A stretch of 64,000 nucleotides of DNA from Tubulanus polymorphus (lineage: Eukaryota; Nemertea; Palaeonemertea; Tubulaniformes; Tubulanidae), in contig NC_134026.1 in the NCBI RefSeq assembly GCF_964204645.1, positions 24,446,650 through 24,510,649 on the forward strand, read 5' to 3'. Shown here in pieces: positions 18,153 through 53,503 of this stretch (the first letter of the stretch is position 1; each line of letters starts with the position of its first letter). The position numbers and the translations under genes are program-made. The notes under the pieces were generated by a model. It searched no databases. It saw nothing but the letters and a program-made list of their open reading frames with translations, and was not told where the DNA came from.

Positions 18153-20775
18153 ATGGCGCAAGTGATGGATCCATTACTGACCACGACAAATCTTTACACA
18201 TCGGCTTTACTGACCAAGTATAACGACGAAAACATTGACATTCAGTCGGTAAGTGAATTATTTCCTTTTATTAGATATTCAAGCGTTTAAAGCTGTGGCA
18301 TTTAGTTAGCTTATACGCAACACGTGGTTGCATCCGAATTCGCAGAGTCTGAAGAGTCAGGTTTATTAGCTTTTTACACAAGACTAGCTGCAATTTAAAA
18401 CCATTTAATGACAACAAGACAAATCTAGATACTCGAAACTAATCGAGTTTTTAGAGAGTTACGTATCTTTAAAAAACCTTGAAAATGGGAATGATTCGTC
18501 AAATCTATGTTATACAGCTAACAGATGTATACACAATAGCTATAAGTCTCATCATCAGAGAACCGAACTGCAGCAGTAGGTGTATGCTAGCGAACATCTG
18601 CGCTGTTTGTAGCAGACGATATTTTACTGAGCAGACGACACGAATGTTATTGATCGATTGGAGTAGTCCCAATCCATCATATTCTCAACATTTAGTAAAA
18701 ACATAGTTGTTTTGAAAAGGATAGCATAATAGACTTCGTAGTTGACATTTTTGCAGTAAAATAAACTTATCAACCTATTTCTGTGCATTAGCTTGATAAT
18801 GATCACTCAGTGGCCTCCCTCTGACTCGAGAGGTTCGAGTCCTGTGTGTGAGTGTCGAATTAGTATTATTCTAGAGTAATACGAAAATAAATAAATATTG
18901 TTCTTATGACATGAGCTGGTGCTTGAATTGAAAAATCACTGCCCGGAGATATAAAATTGCAAACCTCGAACAGCATTGTTCGACTAATGATCGTTGTTGC
19001 ATTTCACACCTGTGGATGGTTAGTTTTGCATATGTAACCCGCTATCAATATTACTTGAAGCAAACTGATGGTAGATGTTAATAACGGTTCATAAAAGAAA
19101 CACGGTGTCGAATTCTGGGTGTAAATTGAAATGTTGCACGCGCTCCCAGTGGGTGGTTGCACGCGCTGCCTCTGGCTATATCATTGTACATAGACTCGTT
19201 ATTGGTTTCATTCTTCAACGATTTGGACAAAGAAATGTAACAAAAACGAAAAACATGTAATTTTTCTAAGTTTTGAAAATATTTCGAAATGAAAGGCATT
19301 AGTTCGAATACAGAATAAGACATTTTTCATTGCCGTTAGGTGATTTCCGATACGGTTTATAGCTGAAACTCCATTGACCTTTTTTTTTAAAGTATCAAAA
19401 TCATTGGCCTGATTGAATTAGTCGCTATCGTGCGTAAGCCGTGTTACGAGTATTTAACGCCTGTTGATAATAGTAATTCATCAAGCACATTTAGATAATG
19501 CATCACAATAAGATTATCAAACACTTCAGCAAATTCGAGGACAATCGTATTTTCTTCAATGAAGATTTTCCGCTCACAAAGAATTGGGCCGATTTTTTTT
19601 CTTTTAAAAATAACACTCAATTAGTCCCATGTAAAAACTATCGTTGACGAAACGAAAGAAAATCATTAGGCATTCTTGGTATCGCCTTGGAATCGAGGCA
19701 TGACTTTTCAGCGACACGCGATGTATTACGAACCACTTATCGACGGATAAATTACATAAAACAAGCTTGTTATCTTGTTCTGACCACTCGGTGTTTATCT
19801 ATTTTTCAGGCCTGGCAGGATGTTGAAAACTTCCTACAACAGGAGATGACTGCTTATGACAAGATGCTGCTCTCTGGGATGCAACACGATGGTATCCATG
19901 GCAACACATTTTACGATATGTCGTCCAGATTATCGGATGTTCCACCTCAAGAGACGTACCGTTTCCCTGAAGATTATGAATCATTACTGGATTTTGATTT
20001 TATCCTGAACAATACGGTAGAACACATGTCAGAGAATGTGAACTTCACCGAAGAGGGCTTACAACGGCTAAAACAGTCTAAAATGTCGTTACCGAACTTT
20101 CAATCAGCATTCATAGAGTTACCAGAAATTAAAGAAGAAAATTCGCTATCAGACTCTCGCTCACATCATATATCTAGTGAACAATATTCAGAATCGGGAT
20201 ATTCAGCTGGATTAATGCACGGGCATGTAAACATTCCCGGTCAATTATCACCCCCTGCTTCTCCAGAAATGACGGATGAACCGCAAATGTTAGATTTGCG
20301 TACAACGAAACAGCAACAGGACATGCTAGGCACTGCCACACAGGAACTTGTCGCCCGTGTCTCCCAGTCTCAAATGAAACCCATATCTCATATGATAACT
20401 CCTCCGTCGTCACCGCAGCTCACTGACTTGTTAAATTTATCCCACCAACAGGCGGCCCTCGTGGAGGGTATGCCAAAAAAGCGTGGGCGACGCAGCTGGG
20501 GCCGCAAGAAGCAGACGACTCATACGTGTTCGTACCCCGGTTGTAGTAAAACGTACACTAAAAGTTCACACTTAAAAGCTCATCTGCGTACTCACACGGG
20601 CGAAAAGCCGTACCATTGTAATTGGGAAGGATGCGGTTGGAAATTCGCGCGATCAGACGAACTTACACGACATTACCGAAAACATACTGGTGACCGGCCG
20701 TTCCAGTGTCAACTCTGCGAGCGCGCCTTTTCAAGAAGTGACCACTTATCGCTTCATATGAAGAGGCATATGTAA
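18153..20775 (+). CDS. KLF4-like (KLF1/2/4 group) zinc-finger transcription factor
   Basis: Two coding exons, 18153-18248 (32 codons, donor GTAAGT) and 19810-20775 (acceptor TTTTTCAG), join in phase 0 to give 353 residues. The C-terminus (272-352) has three C2H2 fingers with the KLF linkers TGEKPYHC and TGDRPFQC, so it should bind GC-box/CACCC DNA in the nucleus. The basic run before the fingers with GRRSW (258-262) is typical of KLF1/2/4, as is the N-terminal acidic patch [10 protein letters not shown] (91-100), which resembles the KLF4 activation segment. IKEE (139-142) fits a SUMO consensus. SPPAS (179-183) and TPPSS (229-233) fit FBXW7-type phosphodegrons. All three fingers lie in one exon. 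The in-frame extension upstream of 19810 is intronic. Family assignment is firm; one-to-one orthology with KLF4 is not shown. Confidence 0.93.
18810..18900 (+). repeat. SINE-like fragment with Pol III B box
   Basis: Within the KLF intron, GGTTCGAGTCC is an exact B-box consensus. It is followed by CTGTGTGTGAG and, about 45 bases later, an AAATAAATAAATATT tail. There is no A box at the right distance and the T-arm pairs over only about three bases. A truncated tRNA-derived SINE fits better than a tRNA gene. Confidence 0.4.
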
Positions 20776-23700
20776 TCGAAAATTTGCTATTATTATCATA
20801 TTCATGTGACTCAATATACACAGCGTTGGTTCTTGAGTGTCGATCACTCGTGCTAAGGACTAAGAAGACAATTATTATTTGGTGCAGTTCGAAATTGTCA
20901 GTATTTCTTTAAACGGTGCATAACCACGTGCGTTTTGTCATTTCAAAAAACCCGCTTTTTCCCGTTTTTCGCGCGGTAATTCTATTTCATTCAGAGACTG
21001 GTATTGCCTTCTCCAAAACTGCATCTGCTGGCTGAAAGATGCGCGAAAGGGGGCGAAGCGATGACCATGTCTTTCTATAATGCGAATAATACTCATTTTT
21101 TAAGTACTCCTATGTCCACAGCGTTTCTGTCCAAGCAATACACTACCCGGAGGTCATATCAAGTTGATATGCGTAACGGGTTGGGTATCATTTGCACAAC
21201 ATCTGTCCAAATCTAACGTCCGGAACGGGTGTAAAAACCACCAGTAAATTCTGAAACGCTTTCTATGCAACAACTTCGAAGTTGAATGCAACCGGCTCTG
21301 TATGTCTTTTTTGTACAACAAGAGATTTTTTCACGGCTATGATATAGATATGATTATATATGTAATATAAACAGCAGAATTGCAGTATTTTGGTGGTTGT
21401 TATACCTTTATTTCAATGACGAATCGAGCACATGTTTGTTTTATCTGTGATAACGTATATTTTACCTATATCTACATAAATATACACAGGGACTAGACAA
21501 AAGTATGGTATTTTAGGATTTCAGATTTATTGTTAAACTCAAATATAATCCTCTCTTCGAACTGGTGACGTCCGCTTTCGCTTTGATACTATTCGGCCTA
21601 CCTACTTAAATTCGTCCACACCAGTTTCTCAGTCCTGCCGATATAACTTTGGAATATGTATTTTAAAAAACTTACACCGTCCTGAGTTTCGTCCAATATT
21701 TAGTCAGTTTATGAGAAATACCGCAAATGATAGAAAAGTGTTTTCTGGAATCATGAACATTCCTATTCAAACGTTCTTGTAAAAACGGCATTTTTGACTG
21801 TCTCAGAATACATCCTATACTTATGCTTACATATCATGTGATTATGTATCAATGTTATTGGTTACGCTAAGGTTACGAAAATCATTAATTGGGATGATGG
21901 ACATTAGATCCGTGTACTTTCCTTCACGTCTTCTTGAATTATTTGGTTGTGACCAAGATACTTGTATTAAATGTTTTCCAAATTTCGATGGCTTTGGTTC
22001 GTTATGATGTGTGTACATATATTGTCCTGTTAACAAGACAGCCAGCACTCCGGCTAGCCTACCTTTAATAACGGCTGTCATCGTTGACTAAATTTACGTG
22101 CATTTGTTTAAATTAATTATCGCAGGGTAGAGTGAGTTTCCCTGACTGTCCACATATACACACGCTATGAAAATAATCTGGTCAAAACGTCTGTGACGTC
22201 ATATAGTCTTCGTGCAATCGCTGTAAATAGTGTCGATATATAAATGATATATATCTATTATATATGTACAGTAATTTATTTACCAATGAGGTCTCGTACA
22301 TGTTGTCGTTTTTATTCGTGAGAAATAACTACCATGCCAAAAAGACATCTTTGGTGATATTTCTTTTCAATCGACACTTTATGGTAGATGATGTTGATCA
22401 AAAATACGAATTTTGTCACGTTTATTTCTTTTTTTTTTGTATGGATATATACATACATACGAATATGATAATTTAAGGAGTATATTATGATATGTACGGT
22501 GTATATAGAAAAAAAATGATATTTTTAAATATCTAGACAAGATTTTCTGGATAATTTTGTTAATAACTTATAAATGTGAACAAAAGAAGAAAATGTGAAC
22601 AAATAAACTTCTTTTGACAAGTGAAAAAGATCGTGAACTTTCTTTCTTTCTCCAATAATTTTCGTTACTCTTCCCAAAAGATATCTCTTGTCTGGAAGTG
22701 GAACCAACGGCACTGACTAGATCCGGAGCTGGGAATATTGTGGCTAATCAGCTATGGAGTAGATGACAGTTCTTACATTTTGCTCAACGAGAAACATATT
22801 CATATATTCAGTAGAGTAAGACTCCGCTCGAGTCGGATCCGATCAATTCAGATGTTAGTTGAAATAATTTTTGTTACACTCCAGTCGGACACATTTTACG
22901 GTCCCAAAAGATTCGACTTGGGCGGAGTTTCGGATGATCAAATTCGCCTTGATTGAACTTCGGCATCCTGGTCGTTCTGAACAAATTTACAGCCAATCGC
23001 TTTGATCTGCACCGGGTATATGACCTATTTTGAACCGCAATACAGGAGAGGATGATATGAAGCCTCTGAATGAAATTATTCATTCAATGCTCTGTGTATA
23101 TTTCAGTTAAGAATCATTTCCAATCGAACTCTGAAACAGATATATTCGTATAACATAATATATATATTCTGTTAAGTGCCCTGCTTTAGAAACAAGGAGC
23201 TCTATAAGTTTCATAATGATAGAGTAATGGTGGTGATAATAGTAATGATAATAATAACATAGACAAGGTGACTATGGTTTTTGAATGTACAAGAGATTCA
23301 TTATTTCCTTGTTATTTCTAGTACTAGAGTGTATGTATTGAAACGATGCTTTGGAACCATTGGATTTATTCCGCTAAAACGATAAATTGAAAACGTGCAT
23401 TTCTTCCATATAAATGGATAAAAGTCATACATAAAAAAATCATCATGTTCAGCAGAACTATGAAAGATTGGCACGAATTGGCAGTATCCTCCTAGGGGCA
23501 ATGGATCTGAAGCGTTTCTGAAATACAAATTGGAAATATGAATATCAACCACTATTTCTCGAATATTGTCATTTTTCCAAATCATATCTGTGAAATTTGA
23601 GATAGTCTAGCTGTCCATAACACAAATTAGTAGCAAGAGCGGTTCCGTTTTGTTTATGCTTGTCTTTGACGTGGGTAAATTTCGTGACTGCCGTGAATTT

Positions 23701-24014
23701 GATACAGCAAAACAATCATATTGCGGGACATTCGAAATGTAGATCTACGCACCGAATTTACGTGAATAGATACTTGAGACTTTGAAATACCGAATTGCAA
23801 TCGTTACCAAATGATATGGCAGTACCAATGCAATAAAAAAGCCAGGCTTTCGTGTTTTAAATATCAAGACAATATTCTAAAGTAATACGTACATACAAAG
23901 ACGTCGCAGTTCAATTTGAATAAAGGTATTCAGGTATTATGTTAAATAGTCAGTTTTTAGAAATTAATCATTCGTGACTTTTTTCACACCTTAAGGTAAT
24001 GCAATATAGCGTGA
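20776..24014. other. KLF 3' UTR and intergenic spacer
   Basis: The first part must hold the KLF 3' UTR. I found no AATAAA close to the stop, and the first clear one is near 22597. The rest lies between the convergent KLF gene and the minus-strand gene at 24015. Imperfect inverted blocks near 22815-22935 (ACTCCGC-C-AGTCG) hint at a small decayed element. No coding exon is recognised. Confidence 0.4.
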
Positions 24015-25667
24015 CTACTGCTGCTTGCTCGGAGACCCGAAACCTTTCGAAAAGTCGGAAAGCTGTAAGATGGCAGGCGGAAGCGGGAGAACTTTGTTTC
24101 CGTTTCGTTCCGGCGGCCATTTGTATTTGACGCACGATAGTTGCATGTCACCCAACGTCAGTGGATTCATTTCCAATCTACGGTTAAGCCCATGTGGCCA
24201 CAAGCTGTCGTGTTTTAGGATCATATCATTGAAGTCTATATCGAGATATTTTGTTTCTTCGGTAGTCGTGAAATAAAAGTACCAGTCTTCGGCTTTTGTG
24301 CTCAATAGAAGAGCGGCTAGTTGCGGAAAATGGGAACATGCCGTGAGGGAGTCATTTATGCACTGTCGAACAGAGTCTAGAACATTTTCAGACTTGTCCA
24401 CGTACCGTAAATGAGGCATGGTCTTATGTTGGAAACAGAATATCCCCGGATGACCAATGTTTTTGTAAAGTTCAGGCTCATCAATTTCCGGACTCCATAG
24501 TAAACATTTCCTTACGAGAACATCAGTAAGACACGGTAAATTCATTATTCTTCCATTGAATTCATGGATGCCACGCATTATGTCAAGACCCCACCAGCCA
24601 CTTTGCAGCCTCGTATCTATTTTAAGAGCACGCACGTTGTCCTTGTCTTCTCTTTTAAAGATCTGAGCGTAGAAATCAACGATATGCTGTAAATTTGACC
24701 AATCTTCATCAGTGAACGAGTCGTGCCTTGTCTTAATCTCGTTCACCATTTCATACATGCGTCTTACGTCCTTCCCGTATCTTTCCAGGTGTTTATCATC
24801 CGATTCGACGATGAACTGTCGGTATTCGGAATAAGTGAGTCCCGAAAGTCCGGTGATGCGATCCTCACCGATACCATTGCCAGATAAGCTGGATTCCATT
24901 GAATCTATCGTTCGGTTAGCTATAGGTGGCCAGTGCCACTTTTTTGCAGATCTTCGAATTTCTGGAAGTGTCATCGGTGTTAACTGTAAGTTGATATTTC
25001 CACCAAATGGCCATAACGTATGGTGTTTGAAAATAGCCTCGTTATATGCCACGTCGATTGCGCCTTGGTCAGTAAGTGGTTCGAAATAGAACGCCCACTC
25101 ACCTGCCAGAGTCGACAACAGAATTGGCAAAAATGGCTCGAACTCCATTGTCGCACCTAGAGCGCCGTAAATGATTTTCTGACATGCGTCAAGAATATTT
25201 TTACCCTGTCCTACGTAACGAAAACATTGTATATTCTTATGTTGAAACACAAATATACCGGAATGGCTGATTTTTTCCGATTGTTCCATCATGACGTCAC
25301 GAATTTCAAACCATTCCATCTTTTTCAAAACTAAAGTCTGTTTCAACTTTTCGATGTTCATAGTTTTTCCACTTGGGCCATTAAACGATGACTTTTCGTC
25401 GGATCCCCACCATCCGCTGTGAAAACGTAAAAGTTTCATGTAAGTTTCGCGTTCTTGTGCTGTCATGGAAACGCAACGTTCCTTGTGACGTTTGTAGATT
25501 TCTTGGCAGGTCTCCCAATCGCCGACTTCAAAGTTGTCACTTCTTTCAAGAATTGAATTTTCGAGCATTACAGTTGATCTACTTCTCTTTATGCCTGCCT
25601 CTACCGGTTCAGGTGTAGCATGGCCCATTCTACCGAGCTGGGGAACGCTCAAACGATTTGCATCCAT
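24015..25667 (-). CDS. Protein with two degenerate GIY-YIG-like modules
   Basis: Uninterrupted 550-codon frame. A clean acceptor (ATTTATATTTCTAG) ends 14 bases before the ATG, so a non-coding 5' exon lies upstream. The protein is an internal duplication with a period of 271-272 residues. Module 1 has SGWWG (84-88), SGIFVF (136-141), RYVGQGKNIL (150-159), NEAIFKH (209-215), GGN (222-224) and KKWHWPP (242-248). Module 2 has SGWWG (356-360), PGIFCF (407-412), RYVDKSENVL (421-430), NDMILKH (480-486), GLN (493-495) and VKYKWPP (513-519). The order GIF, YVG, N-I, E, G-N matches the GIY-YIG nuclease fold. However, the catalytic Arg, expected ten residues after the Tyr, is Ala161 or Ser432, and the metal-binding Glu is E210 but D481. 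It is probably not a nuclease; the fold is retained for another use, perhaps binding. No signal peptide or membrane segment. Function unknown; fold assignment is inference from motif order. Confidence 0.85.
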   Translation of the reverse strand: MDANRLSVPQLGRMGHATPEPVEAGIKRSRSTVMLENSILERSDNFEVGDWETCQEIYKRHKERCVSMTAQERETYMKLLRFHSGWWGSDEKSSFNGPSGKTMNIEKLKQTLVLKKMEWFEIRDVMMEQSEKISHSGIFVFQHKNIQCFRYVGQGKNILDACQKIIYGALGATMEFEPFLPILLSTLAGEWAFYFEPLTDQGAIDVAYNEAIFKHHTLWPFGGNINLQLTPMTLPEIRRSAKKWHWPPIANRTIDSMESSLSGNGIGEDRITGLSGLTYSEYRQFIVESDDKHLERYGKDVRRMYEMVNEIKTRHDSFTDEDWSNLQHIVDFYAQIFKREDKDNVRALKIDTRLQSGWWGLDIMRGIHEFNGRIMNLPCLTDVLVRKCLLWSPEIDEPELYKNIGHPGIFCFQHKTMPHLRYVDKSENVLDSVRQCINDSLTACSHFPQLAALLLSTKAEDWYFYFTTTEETKYLDIDFNDMILKHDSLWPHGLNRRLEMNPLTLGDMQLSCVKYKWPPERNGNKVLPLPPAILQLSDFSKGFGSPSKQQ

Positions 25668-25680
25668 CTTCGAAATCAGT

Positions 25681-25685
25681 GCTAG
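25681..25685 (-). other. 3' splice acceptor upstream of the duplicated GIY-YIG-like gene
   Basis: Read on the minus strand, a T-rich tract ends in TTTCTAG and the exon begins 14 bases before the start codon. The AG occupies 25682-25683. This fixes the 5' limit of the coding exon and implies at least one upstream untranslated exon on the minus strand, not located. Confidence 0.6.
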
Positions 25686-28600
25686 AAATATAAATGAGAT
25701 ACTGGATCAGCAAAATAAGTAATCTGGTATTCTAGCATTCTTTTTTATTCATTTGTTTTAATTGATTAATTTTGATTCTAGTTTATTTGATTTGAATTTT
25801 GGGTTTCCTTACAAACTCACCACACACCGGGAATGCAAACAAAGGGTTTGATTTTGAAATCAAAGTATATACAAATATAGTTGGGTGATCGGTCAAATTT
25901 AGATGATTTTCTCCTAAATCGAAGTAGATGATTAAAAATGTCGGTATTCAGATATTAACCAGATTTAATCTTGAATGTATCCTTAAAATCTGTTCTTCTT
26001 AAGCAATCCTAATTGGCAAACAGCCTCTTCTTATTATCATTAACCACCGCCTAATCTTTAGATTCTATAAGTTTTCAACTTAATTTCAATTTTAAGAAGG
26101 TCACTATAACGAAAGAATAGCTAACTCTATAATACTCTGAAATACATCAACCCATACATCGACAACCAGTATGTAAACATTTTCTATTTCAGCAATAACA
26201 TGAAATTTTCTCTTCATTTAGATAAAAGCTTCGAGACCACTAATAGTACGGATGTAACACGGTTTAATGGATATATATGCAGAATTTCATATAAAAATAC
26301 AAGCCACTAGAATGATAATATGACGAATTGATAACAGTTAATAATTCGCGAATACTATTTCTTTTTAAATGCGATGTTGAAAAATCAAAATAATTACGTA
26401 TACATGTATTGGTATTATCATGGTACGTGCGTGAGCATCTATTTTTCATTATTGAAGAACGCCAGTCCGGATAAACCCCTCTCGATCAATTTATTGCCAT
26501 GTTGTCAATTTCAAAATCACATCCGGACTGAATACGTGTATCAGTACCAGGGAAAATTAATAAATCTGTACAAATCACTATGATGTTTTAAACTAAACCG
26601 CAAATAAACCTGGTAATCCCTGATATAAATAATGACCTGCGTTTATTTATATATGATATCACAAATCATGCATATATTTTCATCTATCCATTTGCCTTAT
26701 ACCTAACGTATATTTGATAACGAAGATACAGTACATAAAATATATATGCGACGTCCTTTTGCTATTCATCTTCATTATCGACGAACAGGCTGTGTTGTCC
26801 AAACGGATTTTTTCTCAATACACACGGAGAAAGTTGCTCTATTATATTGTTTATCAAAGCAAATCTAATTAATCTGATATTGGATGGTTCTGATGCGGAC
26901 ACGGACGCTGGGTCCGCGCTGGTAATCCTGACAAAATGCTTAAAGAAACAATTTCGCCACCAACTTCGCTCCTTACACCGGATTAGTTCCGTTTATACAT
27001 AGGAGTAAGCGAAGCGAATGGGCCGATCATTAACTCGTCTGTGATGCACTCGTATGAGTATTATACATATCATAATGATGCTGTTTCTGGAGGTCCTGTT
27101 ATCCACACTCCTTTCTGTCCCGATTTGACTTTTCTAAACCATTGAGAGTGATTTTCTTGTGCTCGCTGTTGCTCGTATATTATAATATCCACTGGGTTAG
27201 CGATTTTTGATTGTGATATATATTTGAATATGAATGTAACATAATCAAAGCCTGTTGCAATTATATTACCTGAATCACTACAGTTTACCATCAGTCTCTC
27301 CCAATTTTGTTTTAAATCTCCAATTTGTGGTAACCCTTTCTAAATTTTGTTGATGATATAATGGTACTAGCTGAAACGCTTATTTCGGTCATTTTCCCAC
27401 TCCGATCTGTGTAAAGATTGGTATTTCAAAAAAAACTAACGGCGATTTTGAACCCAGCGGCAGATTTTGCTTGGCTTCCTTTCGAAGCGAGTTTTGAGGG
27501 TCTTCGCTAGGAACTCAACTCCTTTGCTTTTGGTTCGTCGCTTGCAATTGAAGGCAATCCAGCGAACAATGGACACGTGTATTTTAACTTCTAAACAAAC
27601 GTCGTTTTCCGTCGCAAATTGCGGCGATTGTCACCAAAGAGCAGATAGCGGCATTGATCGAGTGGCGGAATAAATCGATTATCGACCAATCGATGAGATG
27701 CGGATTTCATCTGATTAGTTTCAGTACAGACGACATATCGGGTTGTTCCTAGTTGTATGAGACTTTTTTCAGTATGACACCGAACATTTGTTATAACATT
27801 CAAATGAAATATTCATAAGAAATGGTTTTTAAACGTATATACATATGTATATATATGTACATATACATTAGAAATTAGAAATCATTGTATAGGAAATTGA
27901 ATATAAAATTGAGCTTAAGAAAGATGAACTTTCATGATATTCATATTGGACACACGGCTGTATTCATCTATTCATTTAATCAATTTTAAGAATTGTACAA
28001 TTGTTTGACCTTATTGCTAGTTTCGAAATTGTCTGATTTCCTTAACCGCATATTCGAGAAATGCAAACATTTCCCTTGTGCCCCAATGATTCGTCTTACA
28101 GTCGTTTTGCTATTTAGTGCTAACGCTGCACGGGGAGCGTTTTACAAATAACTTCCATTTATGACTTATTTAGACACTAATGAAACCACTCTATTTACAC
28201 CGTTCAGCCGGTTCATAACTTTATATCCCAATGTTAACGAAATGATGGATCATTTTTTTGTAAGAAAAACCAAAAGTTAGACTAAGAGCGAATGGAGATC
28301 TCGATTTGAAACCTAACATGTACCGCAAGTCTTATGTTGCAGTTCATATGTTATAAGCCATCTTTAGCTTTTGATTTGAGAAAATTGGCAGCCGGATTAG
28401 ATGGTGAATTCAGGTGCAAACGAACCCTTCGAGTTTGGAAGGGGGCAACCGAAAAGCCCTCGATTCATCCATCTTTTATTAGATTGGCTTCTTTCAGTAT
28501 GTTGAATAATTCAAGCAAAAAAGGGAAGTTCCAAAAAATTAATCAGAGAGGTAAGAAGCACGTTACACCAACCGGTCCCGGACAATATCACTACAGTGCA

Positions 28601-29497: not shown

Positions 29498-32400
29498 TTA
29501 CAAGGAAAAGTCAAAGTCGTCCAAATCACTTTGTATGATGTCAAAAATCTCGGAAATACCGGGGCGCAATCCCTCCAAGGTTTGATCAACTACGTGGATA
29601 ATTCCATTGGTTGCTGGCAGGTCACATGCGCTGATACGAGCGATATCTCTTCGTCGATTGACTATTCGAACATCACCGGCCACATGACGGAAATTCAAGG
29701 TCATTCCGCTGAGGGAAAATGCTGGTAGTACTGAGCTACTCTTACAGCAGAAAACCCCTATTATGAGAAATGTATGATAGCTCAACAAACATTTTTAAGG
29801 TATTAATCAAACACGCTGAAAAACCTTATTCGGAATTACCTCTAATGATGTGACTTTTTATGAATTCTTTCAGGTTTCTCCTTCTGCCATGCGACCGACG
29901 CGACATCTGAAATACCTAAAAAATCTCATAGTCAGTTAACTACATCAAAATGCTGAAGTCATGAATAATCGCGGAGAGAAATTATTCGTTTTTACCGCAT
30001 TGGTTGGGGCTAAAATAGTCATAGGATGGTCAGATTGTAAATGATGATGTAAGCCTGTCGTTCTCAAAAGAGTGACAAATTCTGTGAATTGTGGATCGGC
30101 TGAAAGCGTGTCCAACAGGTTCGCTTGCGGCGTGTGTAACACCTATGATGATACGGAAAATCGTAGACAGTAAATTCTGACTCAAGTAATATAATCCTTA
30201 TGTGCCGTATCTTATGGCACTTCATAGATTTTAATGAATATCATGGTTCATACACAGACCTTGTCGATAAGAAACACGTTTACGTTAGAACACGTTCTTA
30301 GATTGTATTTCACCAACTGGGCGCATTGTACCAATGGCTTAATCCACTGAAATTCAAATAACGACATATTTTCACTAGAACTAACAATTCTAGTATAATG
30401 TGATTTTTCTTACGGATTCCAGTTTATGTGATACGCACGTGTCTCGAGTTGACAGTGAGAGTCTTGTTCTCGGACATTGATGGTAGATGTCGCGCGTGTT
30501 TTATTTTACGATAGTCGTACAGTCCGCTGACGAAATGGTACTTCAAAAGCGTCTTCAATTCCTGCTTGTTTTTCATCAATTCATCCATTTCTTCTTTCGG
30601 TTCTTGCTACAAAGGAATTGATGAACTAATTACCATTGTGAATTCCAATCAACTGATTTGGTAATTAATGAAAACGTATTCTATCTATCTACACACACTG
30701 CAGACAGGAGTGCCGTTCCCGCATTAGCAACACAGCCATAGCGGACGCTGTCCACAGCAATAGGCTACACACAGGGCTTGATCCCATGATCCTCCGGGAC
30801 CGAGACCGGTGCCTACTATTTCATTTATAGACCAATTTTATTTTCATTTAAGTGACATGTCCTTACTATGATGGCTCCGTTCGTTGGTAAGAATAGGGTT
30901 GCGTTCTCCATGGATTCTACATATGACAGTAATTCCGCTTTCTTTATCATATTGATGATTTCAGTGGCGCCTTCTGCTTTCGCCAAACTAACGGGACTCA
31001 TTTCTAAAAATAAGAATATACACCTGTTCAACTCCTCATATAAGATTCAAAAGTTGGTGCTTTTTTTCCTAAATAGCCAATTTCTGTCCATACTTTCCAT
31101 CCCGAGCACCTTGTCAACAACCAGAACAACTCCGTCACTTGCCACATAACTAGCAGTGACCTTGACCCCAGAGAGAAAAAGACTATTTTCCGCATCTTTC
31201 GTCAGACGTAATCGTTTCTTGTTTAGATCAGTGACTGTAAGACCATCAGTAGTGATCACCGTCGGACATATCGAATTCTTGATCACGTGCGACCGAAGAA
31301 AATCTAGAGTGACGAGAATATAGTGAAACTGTATACATTGTAAAATCATCCCGTCCCGTGGGCGTGTATATAGGAATATACTCACGATCACCGAAACATT
31401 TTTTCAATAGATTTTCCAGATTCGGTTCGTTGAAGGCATTATCTGTCGGAGCAATAATAGTATAACCGTCATCGCCACGGAGAGTTTCATTCCACTTCGA
31501 CTTCAATTCTGAAATGACCATGTGATCAGATTCATAATCTGATAATAACGTGATGGCTATATTGCGATACACAAACATATCTAAATGCGAACCTTCGATG
31601 AATTTCTTATGATTTCCAGTGTCTTGAAGAATCTGTATTGTTGTTCTGCCGATAGTTGGAATAATGTCTTCGGCAACGTGAATGATACCGTTAGATGCTA
31701 GATTATCCACAGAGACCAATTTCACACAGTTTGCCGTTATTACCTTAACAATTTAACCAATCATCTTAATGATACATATTTTTTGGATGATAAATTCAAT
31801 ATAATGAATTGTGAGTTCACCTAGAAAGTTTTTTTTTTAAATTCAAACTAACAAAATGATTCAAAGTCAAATATGTAATGTCAGAATTGAGGTTTTCTGT
31901 CTGATATTTTTATCTAGTGTGTATCACTGTTCGTGCCACATATAATTAGCAGTAAGAATTAGCATACCCCAGTACGTTTATCCTTATTAAACCTGATTTG
32001 AGAACCGGGCAACGTTGGATCCACCACCATATCGTCTATCATGTGGTGAGAAAGCAACTCTCTCTTTGGGATTATATGATTGAGTACAGTTTCTACTGCG
32101 TGGCCCGCCTCACTCGCCGTATCTTGCGATACCACCACCAAGTTGTTCATCAGGAGATTCTAAAAAGCAAATTTTATTTCATGTAAGAATTTTGTGTAAA
32201 ATTGTGTAAACATGCCTAAGATTAATGAAATTGCGTAGCCTTCAGTGTCAGTCTCTGTTTTCCATTTTCAGTACCTGTTCCGATGTATACTGCTTCAGTT
32301 TTTCGTTAGGGGGCGCTAATAGTGTGAGCGTTGTATTTGTTAACGATTCGTTGAGCCCTATGCTGGATAATGCTCTCCTGAACTCGGTCAGATCCAAATC

Positions 32401-34531
32401 CTTCAAAACCTCTAGAATATCTTTCAGCTCCACCTCTGAAATAGGATAATTTTCAGAATCGTTCATGATATGCGTTTTAATATGTGAATTATGTAATTAT
32501 ATTTAATTCAATTTTCTTTTCTCTTCACTCCAGTTCATTCAATCTGAATCTTCTGCAGTATACTCAACAAACTTTACCCTGTTGGCATCCTAGTTCTCCT
32601 TGTCTATGACCAAATCCACTACAACAGGTGTATGTTACCACACTCGTATTCTTCCATGCGCCACATTCGATACTATGAAAGTTATAGATTCATAAATTAA
32701 TTGCAAATCGTAAGTTTAATGGTACTTGGTTTTACGTACGTGAAATTTTCACATTACATAATTTAATCAAAGATAATGTTAACGAAGAGACAATGTATTT
32801 AATCGAAAGAGAGCATTTACAAACACAATATAATACAAACTATACTTCGTTTGCAATCTTCAAAAAACTTATGTCGAAAGAGACACGAGAGGTAAAAACA
32901 AAAGCTTACGTTGATTCACAAACATAAGCAGAAGCTTTGTCTTGACATCGGTTGATTTTCGTGATGAAAAATGAACTAGACGGGTTTTCTTTGCGTTCAG
33001 TGGTCGTCCGCCTCTTCTTACAAACGTTAGGCCTGTAATCCAGTGATACAAATAGCAGTTATATGCAATAAGTGCAATAGAACGAAACTATGCACATTTG
33101 GCATTTATTGACCATATAGATGCCCTAAAGTGAAATAATGCTAGAACATATCTCTGCTGCTTTTGGATTTTACGTCAATCTAAAATTATTCACGGAAAGA
33201 AGGAGATTAAAAATACGTACCCTCTCCACCAGTCAGTTGAACTGCTGAATTCAACATCGAAGTCGAAACCAAAATTTATATCCCAGTCAGGGATACCCAG
33301 TCGTGCGGCTAGTTGTACCCAACTGAAAATATGTGCATTTAAAAGATACATTTAAGGGAACGCGTTAGTTTGAGTCTCCTAATTAATCTCAGAATGTTCT
33401 CATTTTCATTTTCACGCTGAGCAACTTGTTTCTGAATCGTTGCCAAACGAATTGTTTTGCACTTCTCGATGCGTGAAAACAAGCTTGTATCCGCGTCTGA
33501 ACTTTGTGTAAACACTCATGTTTCCTGTTCATCTTGCCAACCATACAGATACACATTTCCATGATTTACACAGCGCCATCAAATCCTCATAACGTTTACT
33601 CGATAGTTTATCTTCTACAAGGAGTATGTTTCGCGTATTTTCCATGGCAAAATAAGAAAGACTCAATACAATTAGATCAGACTGTTTCGTCTAATTTTGT
33701 TTGGAGTTTTCTAGATCTAGATTGACAAGAAATACAAAATACAACACGAAAGAAACAGATTTTAGATAGATAGAAATTTTCAATGCGGATTAAATTCGTT
33801 ATCGATAGTGTTCTTTTACGGTGGAGGCGTCCTATCAACAATCCCCCCCCTTTCCAGCATTCCTTCCTAGCGTATCTTTCATCAAGCAAGTTAATCGAGA
33901 AAGGTTAAACCTGCCGTTACGAATTAGATACATCTAGCTGAGATCTCATCAGTCTTTGCCAACTTCTCTGAAAATACCTTTCTGTTCCGCTCGATACGTT
34001 CATTTAATACAAGAATTCATTTACTTACTCTACCAGGTTTTTGCCATTTTCCAAAATACTGCTTTGTCTTCCTCCACGCCGCTTCGAAGAACCACGTTTG
34101 TGGGTAACATGGTGCCCAGGTCTCCGGGACACTCCTCGGCCTCCTCGTCCGAATCCTCCTCTCCGTCCAATTGTCCGACTATTGAGTTCCACATCGTCTA
34201 CTCTTCCTCCGCGTCCTCTTCTGCGATTGTCTCCCCTTGAAGGTTGTCGTATCCTAAAACCTGGATCTTCGATGCCGTGTACTCGTCGCCATGGTGGATC
34301 AACTGAACCCATATTTCGGCCACTTTTTGCCAGCCAGTCGTAGTCGTACACATCATCACCACCATCGTCATATTCGTCAAAATAATCGTCCAGTAAGTCA
34401 ATATCCGTAACGAATGGTTCCAAGGCTTCAAGATGATGCGGTCCTCGCCGACTTAAGGCTTGTTGCCACGAAACACGCCCTACAGATAAAGACACGCACA
34501 CTAAACAAATCAACAACAGTGCTAGTCTCAT
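29498..34531 (-). CDS. TGFBI/periostin-like secreted matrix protein (EMI + four FAS1)
   Basis: Fourteen coding exons in transcript order: 34531-34029, 33322-33221, 33032-32910, 32672-32578, 32435-32275, 32159-31968, 31743-31386, 31303-31094, 31003-30867, 30606-30439, 30346-30260, 30142-29996, 29906-29840, 29730-29498. All junctions are GT-AG and keep phase; the product is 860 residues. A signal peptide (about 1-18) leads into an acidic Asp/Tyr stretch (43-65) and an Arg/Gly-rich stretch (92-155) containing RGD (99-101). The EMI domain follows (about 201-273; GPNVC, then TYTCCSGF). Four FAS1 domains occupy about 275-425, 426-582, 583-712 and 713-845, with APTNA/APTDNAF and SNGIIHVAED/TNGIIHVVDQ motifs. 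EMI plus four FAS1 is the TGFBI/periostin architecture (human TGFBI has 683 residues); the extra length is mostly the N-terminal charged insert. Role by family: matricellular adhesion. The shortest exons and the start of exon 14 (acceptor GTAGCTCAG) are the least certain. Confidence 0.92.
30715..30820 (-). repeat. SINE-like fragment with Pol III B box
   Basis: On the minus strand GGATCAAGCCCTGTGTGTAG contains a B-box-like core and is followed by sequence with no coding potential. It lies in the intron between exons 9 and 10 of the TGFBI-like gene. The CTGTGTGTAG extension recalls the one after the B box at about 18835, so both may belong to one SINE family. No A box was recognised. Confidence 0.35.

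Positions 34532-43508: not shown

Positions 43509-53503
<9,995 letters not shown>

Follow-up and report, generated by a model that had tools for sequence, protein, structure and literature searches.

Does a gene of the nemertean Tubulanus polymorphus encode a tandem pair of GIY-YIG-like nuclease domains that no longer cut? The gene in question is an open reading frame (ORF) on contig NC_134026.1, within a stretch of 64,000 nucleotides (nt) (positions 24,446,650 to 24,510,649 of the forward strand) that was analyzed as a whole and is called the window below. An earlier note, made from the sequence alone, had given the ORF and its coordinates exactly (24015-25667, minus strand) and had described its product as an internally duplicated GIY-YIG-like protein with a lost catalytic center. 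The reading that we favor, and to which we give an even chance, is a protein of two modules with cores in the GIY-YIG layout, which would serve as a bivalent scaffold and would not cut.

A duplicated protein of two modules

The frame, which begins with an ATG, stays open over 550 codons, contains no intron, and encodes a protein of 550 amino acids (aa) with a mass of about 64 kDa and an isoelectric point of 6.2. The longest open stretch in 20 mononucleotide shuffles of the window was 149 codons (three frames), and the 550-codon frame is far beyond chance. A TTTCTAG sequence 14 nt 5′ of the ATG suggests an intron in the 5′ untranslated region or an upstream, possibly untranslated, exon.

The internal duplication of the protein is beyond doubt. 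Modules A and B are identical at 79 of 230 residues (34%; blastp E = 2e-42), and their local alignment reaches a Smith-Waterman score of 337, whereas no score in 500 shuffles exceeds 55. Their 124-residue cores align without gaps, with 49 identical residues. The repeat period is 272 residues at SGWWG (84/356) and 271 at GIF (137/408), FQHK (141/412), RYV (150/421), LLST (183/454), FYF (193/464), LWP (218/489), and WPP (246/517), in line with the tandem repeat of period 271-272 described earlier. The landmark motifs of that description are also common to both modules, but N(E/D)xIxKH, rather than (E/D)xxIxKH, is the form of the helix motif, and literal KWPP is present only in module B; what both modules have is K(W/Y)xWPP. 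Between the two cores, agreement is 57, 64, and 31% at codon positions 1, 2, and 3, respectively, and among the 16 fourfold sites that share the first two bases, one agrees. The silent sites are therefore saturated, and the uneven agreement over codon positions indicates that both copies have long been under selection as protein.

Catalytic positions

We used E. coli UvrC (Y21, Y32, R42, E81, and N93, frame as translated) as the ruler for the catalytic positions. The GIY Tyr is replaced by Phe in both modules (F139 in module A and F410 in module B), a change that the earlier note had overlooked, and the YIG Tyr is retained in both, as Y151 (YVG) and Y422 (YVD). At the site of the first-helix Arg (Tyr+10 in E. 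coli UvrC), module A has Ala161 and module B has Ser432. The metal-binding Glu position is occupied by E210 in module A and D481 in module B; the UvrC alignment could alternatively put the preceding Asn there. Both the absence of the key Arg and the change from Glu to Asp in the second module were correctly noticed before. The terminal Asn, which had gone unmentioned, is retained in both modules (N224 and N495), 14 residues after the Glu/Asp. Position Tyr+12 is Q163 in module A and R434 in module B, and an Arg at +12 is therefore found in module B only.

The active residues of ANKLE1 are Y453, Y486, H498, K519, E551, and N565, and the activity is undetectable once the phenolic oxygen of Y453 is removed (PMC10287932). 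If Y453 is the GIY Tyr, as the order of residues in that paper implies, GIF in both modules represents the same loss, and it is for this reason that the word "dead" is most strongly grounded. The dead-nuclease claim is conditional on the fold: provided that the GIY-YIG fold is right, the claim has a good basis, and the protein is very probably a dead nuclease.

The proposed protein would be soluble and would consist of two modules of ~220 residues, made from a single-copy gene with an intronless coding region. In each module, a helical lead-in and a segment of the form SGWWG...G(K/R)xMN would precede a core in the GIY-YIG nuclease layout, namely two strands bearing GIF and YV(G/D), a helix, a strand, a helix with N(E/D), and then GxN. 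Cutting would have been lost with the changes of the GIY Tyr to Phe, of the Arg to Ala/Ser, and of the Glu to Asp in module B, and the two domain copies may bind nucleic acid or a protein partner. A bivalent scaffold is proposed because there is no membrane-fit hydrophobic stretch in the 550-aa protein (highest 19-residue mean 1.2), because it has a short basic stretch (KRSR, residues 27-30), and because two linked copies carry conserved Trp/Pro signatures; such a scaffold is the most economical guess.

Comparison with known GIY-YIG proteins

The two modules resemble the GIY-YIG superfamily (I-TevI, UvrC, Slx1, and ANKLE1) in the order of landmarks, the YIG Tyr, the terminal Asn, the Glu of module A, and, weakly, the structure of module A, whereas they differ in the Phe of GIF, the Ala/Ser at the Arg site, the Asp for Glu in module B, the tandem copies, the added SGWWG segment, and the lack of a profile match. 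The terminal Asn is itself absent in Slx1, according to the available part of a 2006 survey of the superfamily (PMC1564403). Listed in that part are the eukaryotic Slx1, COG3680 (ANKLE1), and Penelope groups, along with a MutS fusion and several unorthodox homing types, and no tandem family is named in it.

ANKLE1/LEM-3 (COG3680) shares with the protein a YVGxGK-like second motif, seen in module A, and an E-to-N spacing of 14; the catalytic His of ANKLE1 is at Tyr+12, where module B has R434. Domain Unc-1 of ANKLE2, the closest precedent, is an animal domain with a GIY-YIG-like structure; it has no clear motifs, showed no nuclease activity in an assay, and has been suggested to play a scaffolding role (PMC13179284). 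Unlike ANKLE2, which is described as an ankyrin/LEM protein, the protein studied here has two copies, no Pfam match (and so no ankyrin, LEM, or ANKLE2 domain), and GIF and YV(G/D) that are still visible. If the favored reading is true, it would add to ANKLE2 a further animal protein that keeps the GIY-YIG fold for a non-cutting use, here in two linked copies, and would offer a natural test of the role of this fold without its chemistry. We tentatively suggest, at somewhat below an even chance, an undescribed animal family: a tandem dead GIY-YIG pair, marked by SGWWG and WPP signatures of its own and selected to hold branched nucleic acid or protein partners as a bivalent clamp or scaffold.

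Sequence searches and genomic context

Searches of Pfam, NCBIfam, PHROGs, PADLOC, and PDB sequences gave matches at chance level at most, which agrees with the earlier view that the family could not be named. Among those taken as chance are PDB sequence matches to CD1d, DCC1, DNA polymerase alpha, and a designed barrel (best E = 0.059) and weak Pfam matches to MAAL_C (E = 0.071) and DUF1397 (E = 0.19). No relatives were found among viral contigs (protein and module-alignment queries), prokaryote genomes, phages, and plasmids, an absence that says little because these are poor places for an animal gene. Such a family is not named in the literature searched (open-licence PMC papers).

In the whole 268-Mb genome (77 contigs), the only matches of each module at E values up to 10 are to itself and to the other module, and the gene is single copy. 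The same genome holds at least 150 matches to PF01541 (306 candidates, 150 of them scored), and many of these lie in frames of 817-841 aa. The window gene is not among the PF01541 matches listed for these scored candidates, which is weak as evidence. Some PF01541 frames form pairs of opposite orientation within a few kb of each other, an arrangement like that of Penelope-like elements (e.g., C5:7313720-7320417, locus L201 and its neighbors), and the uninterrupted Penelope-type frames could reflect recent activity. A separate LEM-3/ANKLE1 GIY-YIG locus is located at C5:7368485-7369514 on the minus strand (loci L202-L204), with exons in which the YIG, His, and Glu regions are in place. The window protein is absent from the LEM-3_GIY-YIG locus list and has no LEM-3_GIY-YIG match.

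Evidence for and against a GIY-YIG fold

Motif order and spacing, together with a low-confidence model of module A, suggest a GIY-YIG fold, and we regard GIY-YIG ancestry of the modules as about evenly balanced. When the two cores were shuffled 20000 times, a loose GIY-YIG skeleton pattern, composed after the sequence had been seen, was matched by 4 and 2 shuffles. The AlphaFold model of module A (predicted local distance difference test, pLDDT, 40.4; predicted template modeling score 0.29) has its elements in the GIY-YIG order and retrieves GIY-YIG endonucleases from several families in the viral and PDB structure lists; 7 of the 41 rows listed by VIA-align are GIY-YIG. A hidden Markov model (HMM) built from 80 GIY-YIG sequences of phages gives module A 4.9 bits, more than for 397 of 400 shuffles, and the known members YhbQ and UvrC score 3.4 and 0.8. 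With hhalign, the two-row core scores above 99 of 100 shuffles against the phage set (1/100 as good), but in the wrong register; it aligns in register with UvrC, where 10 of 100 shuffles are as good, and 1 of 100 is as good against the merged set. The HMM and hhalign tests are low-powered, because true GIY-YIG pairs are also weak in part (14.3 for UvrC with the phage set and 15.4 for YhbQ with the Penelope-type pieces). For reference sequences, an I-TevII search found a single identical copy in viral contigs, a YhbQ scan gave none, and an I-TevII search of phages gave 93 records, of which two were taken; a five-sequence reference alignment was too poor and was left unused.

The following results weigh against this reading, as does the origin of the skeleton pattern. 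The profile comparison gave no match that places the protein in GIY-YIG: neither PF01541 nor PF22945 was matched at E values up to 10 by hmmscan against Pfam with the full protein, its halves, the cores, and the SGWWG-to-WPP stretches, in runs where HMMER filters drop weak matches. Three of the 400 shuffles outscore module A with the phage HMM (best 9.5), module B scores -1.2 bits and is mid-range among its shuffles, and every HMM and hhalign test had at least one shuffle scoring higher. Prediction of each module's structure, a check proposed in the earlier note, gave a divided answer: module A draws out GIY-YIG enzymes, but enhancer of rudimentary homolog (ERH), an unrelated fold, ranks higher in the PDB, with 11 of the 41 VIA-align rows and 17 of the 50 listed PDB rows in Foldseek (counting 6akj, which we take to be an ERH chain). 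No structure match of module A reaches E = 0.001, the best in PDB being E = 0.62. The core of module B (pLDDT 40.2) differs from GIY-YIG in element order, has an archaeal tRNA-splicing endonuclease as its top PDB match (E = 0.043, probability 0.90), and has no GIY-YIG enzyme among the best 50 of its 489 PDB matches; none is among its 50 matches listed by VIA-align either, although absence from that list excludes nothing. Both models are of low confidence (pLDDT 40).

These results could also be explained by another or novel alpha/beta fold, for instance an ERH-like one, in which the landmarks are coincidental and the protein is a duplicated adaptor without nuclease ancestry. The ERH chains, the tRNA-splicing endonuclease subunits nearest to module B, and the missing profile match favor such a fold, whereas the rarity of the skeleton in shuffles and the recurrence of several GIY-YIG families for module A argue against it; ERH leads the PDB rows for a model of pLDDT 40, and the protein has no ERH match in Pfam. 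We consider this explanation a serious one, though slightly less than an even bet. It is highly improbable that the protein is an active nuclease of the GIY-YIG type whose catalytic residues have moved, with E210/N224 or D481/N495 holding the metal and R434 of module B at Tyr+12. The Glu/Asp and Asn are indeed retained in both modules at the ANKLE1 spacing, but Tyr+12 is Gln in module A, and the Phe of GIF in both modules lacks the oxygen without which ANKLE1 activity is undetectable (PMC10287932). We see equally little prospect that a GIY-YIG domain of the Penelope-like elements filling this genome was domesticated and afterward duplicated. The abundance of PF01541 frames and the intronless coding frame would fit such an origin. 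However, when the cores were compared by hhalign with Penelope-type pieces (from 18 of 30 loci fetched), 79 of 100 shuffles scored at least as high, which also counts against a GIY-YIG fold; the same pieces match the phage set well (probability 89) and UvrC weakly (probability 30). In Penelope-type proteins the GIY-YIG domain follows a reverse transcriptase, and the window ORF, having no Pfam match, has no detectable one. Furthermore, transposon-like ends were not seen in 22500-27500, where the only repeats are of 16-22 nt, and the flanks hold no repeat longer than 22 nt.

Features and neighboring genes

Table 1. Features of the two-module gene, in window coordinates
Feature	Position	Strand	Basis
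Whole coding frame, 550 aa	24015..25667	-	sequence, ORF analysis
Module A (residues 37-251)	24915..25559	-	self-alignment
Module B (residues 303-522)	24102..24761	-	self-alignment
Putative GIY-YIG-like core, module A (residues 128-251): F139, Y151, A161, E210, N224	24915..25286	-	motif alignment
Putative GIY-YIG-like core, module B (residues 399-522): F410, Y422, S432, R434, D481, N495	24102..24473	-	motif alignment
SGWWG signature, module A (residues 84-88)	25404..25418	-	sequence
SGWWG signature, module B (residues 356-360)	24588..24602	-	sequence
Putative splice acceptor (TTTCTAG), 14 nt 5′ of the ATG	25682..25683	-	consensus only, by eye

Several other genes are found in the window. The ORF at 19687-20775 on the plus strand ends in three C2H2 zinc fingers and is presumably KLF-like. 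The ORF at 34025-34531 on the minus strand begins with a signal-peptide-like sequence, has a tail rich in Arg and Gly, and gives no Pfam match at E values up to 0.001. Also on the minus strand are a fasciclin-domain piece at 31246-31725 (E = 6.2e-6) and, at 43509-44789, an amino acid transporter whose match (E = 3.6e-90) extends over most of the Aa_trans profile.
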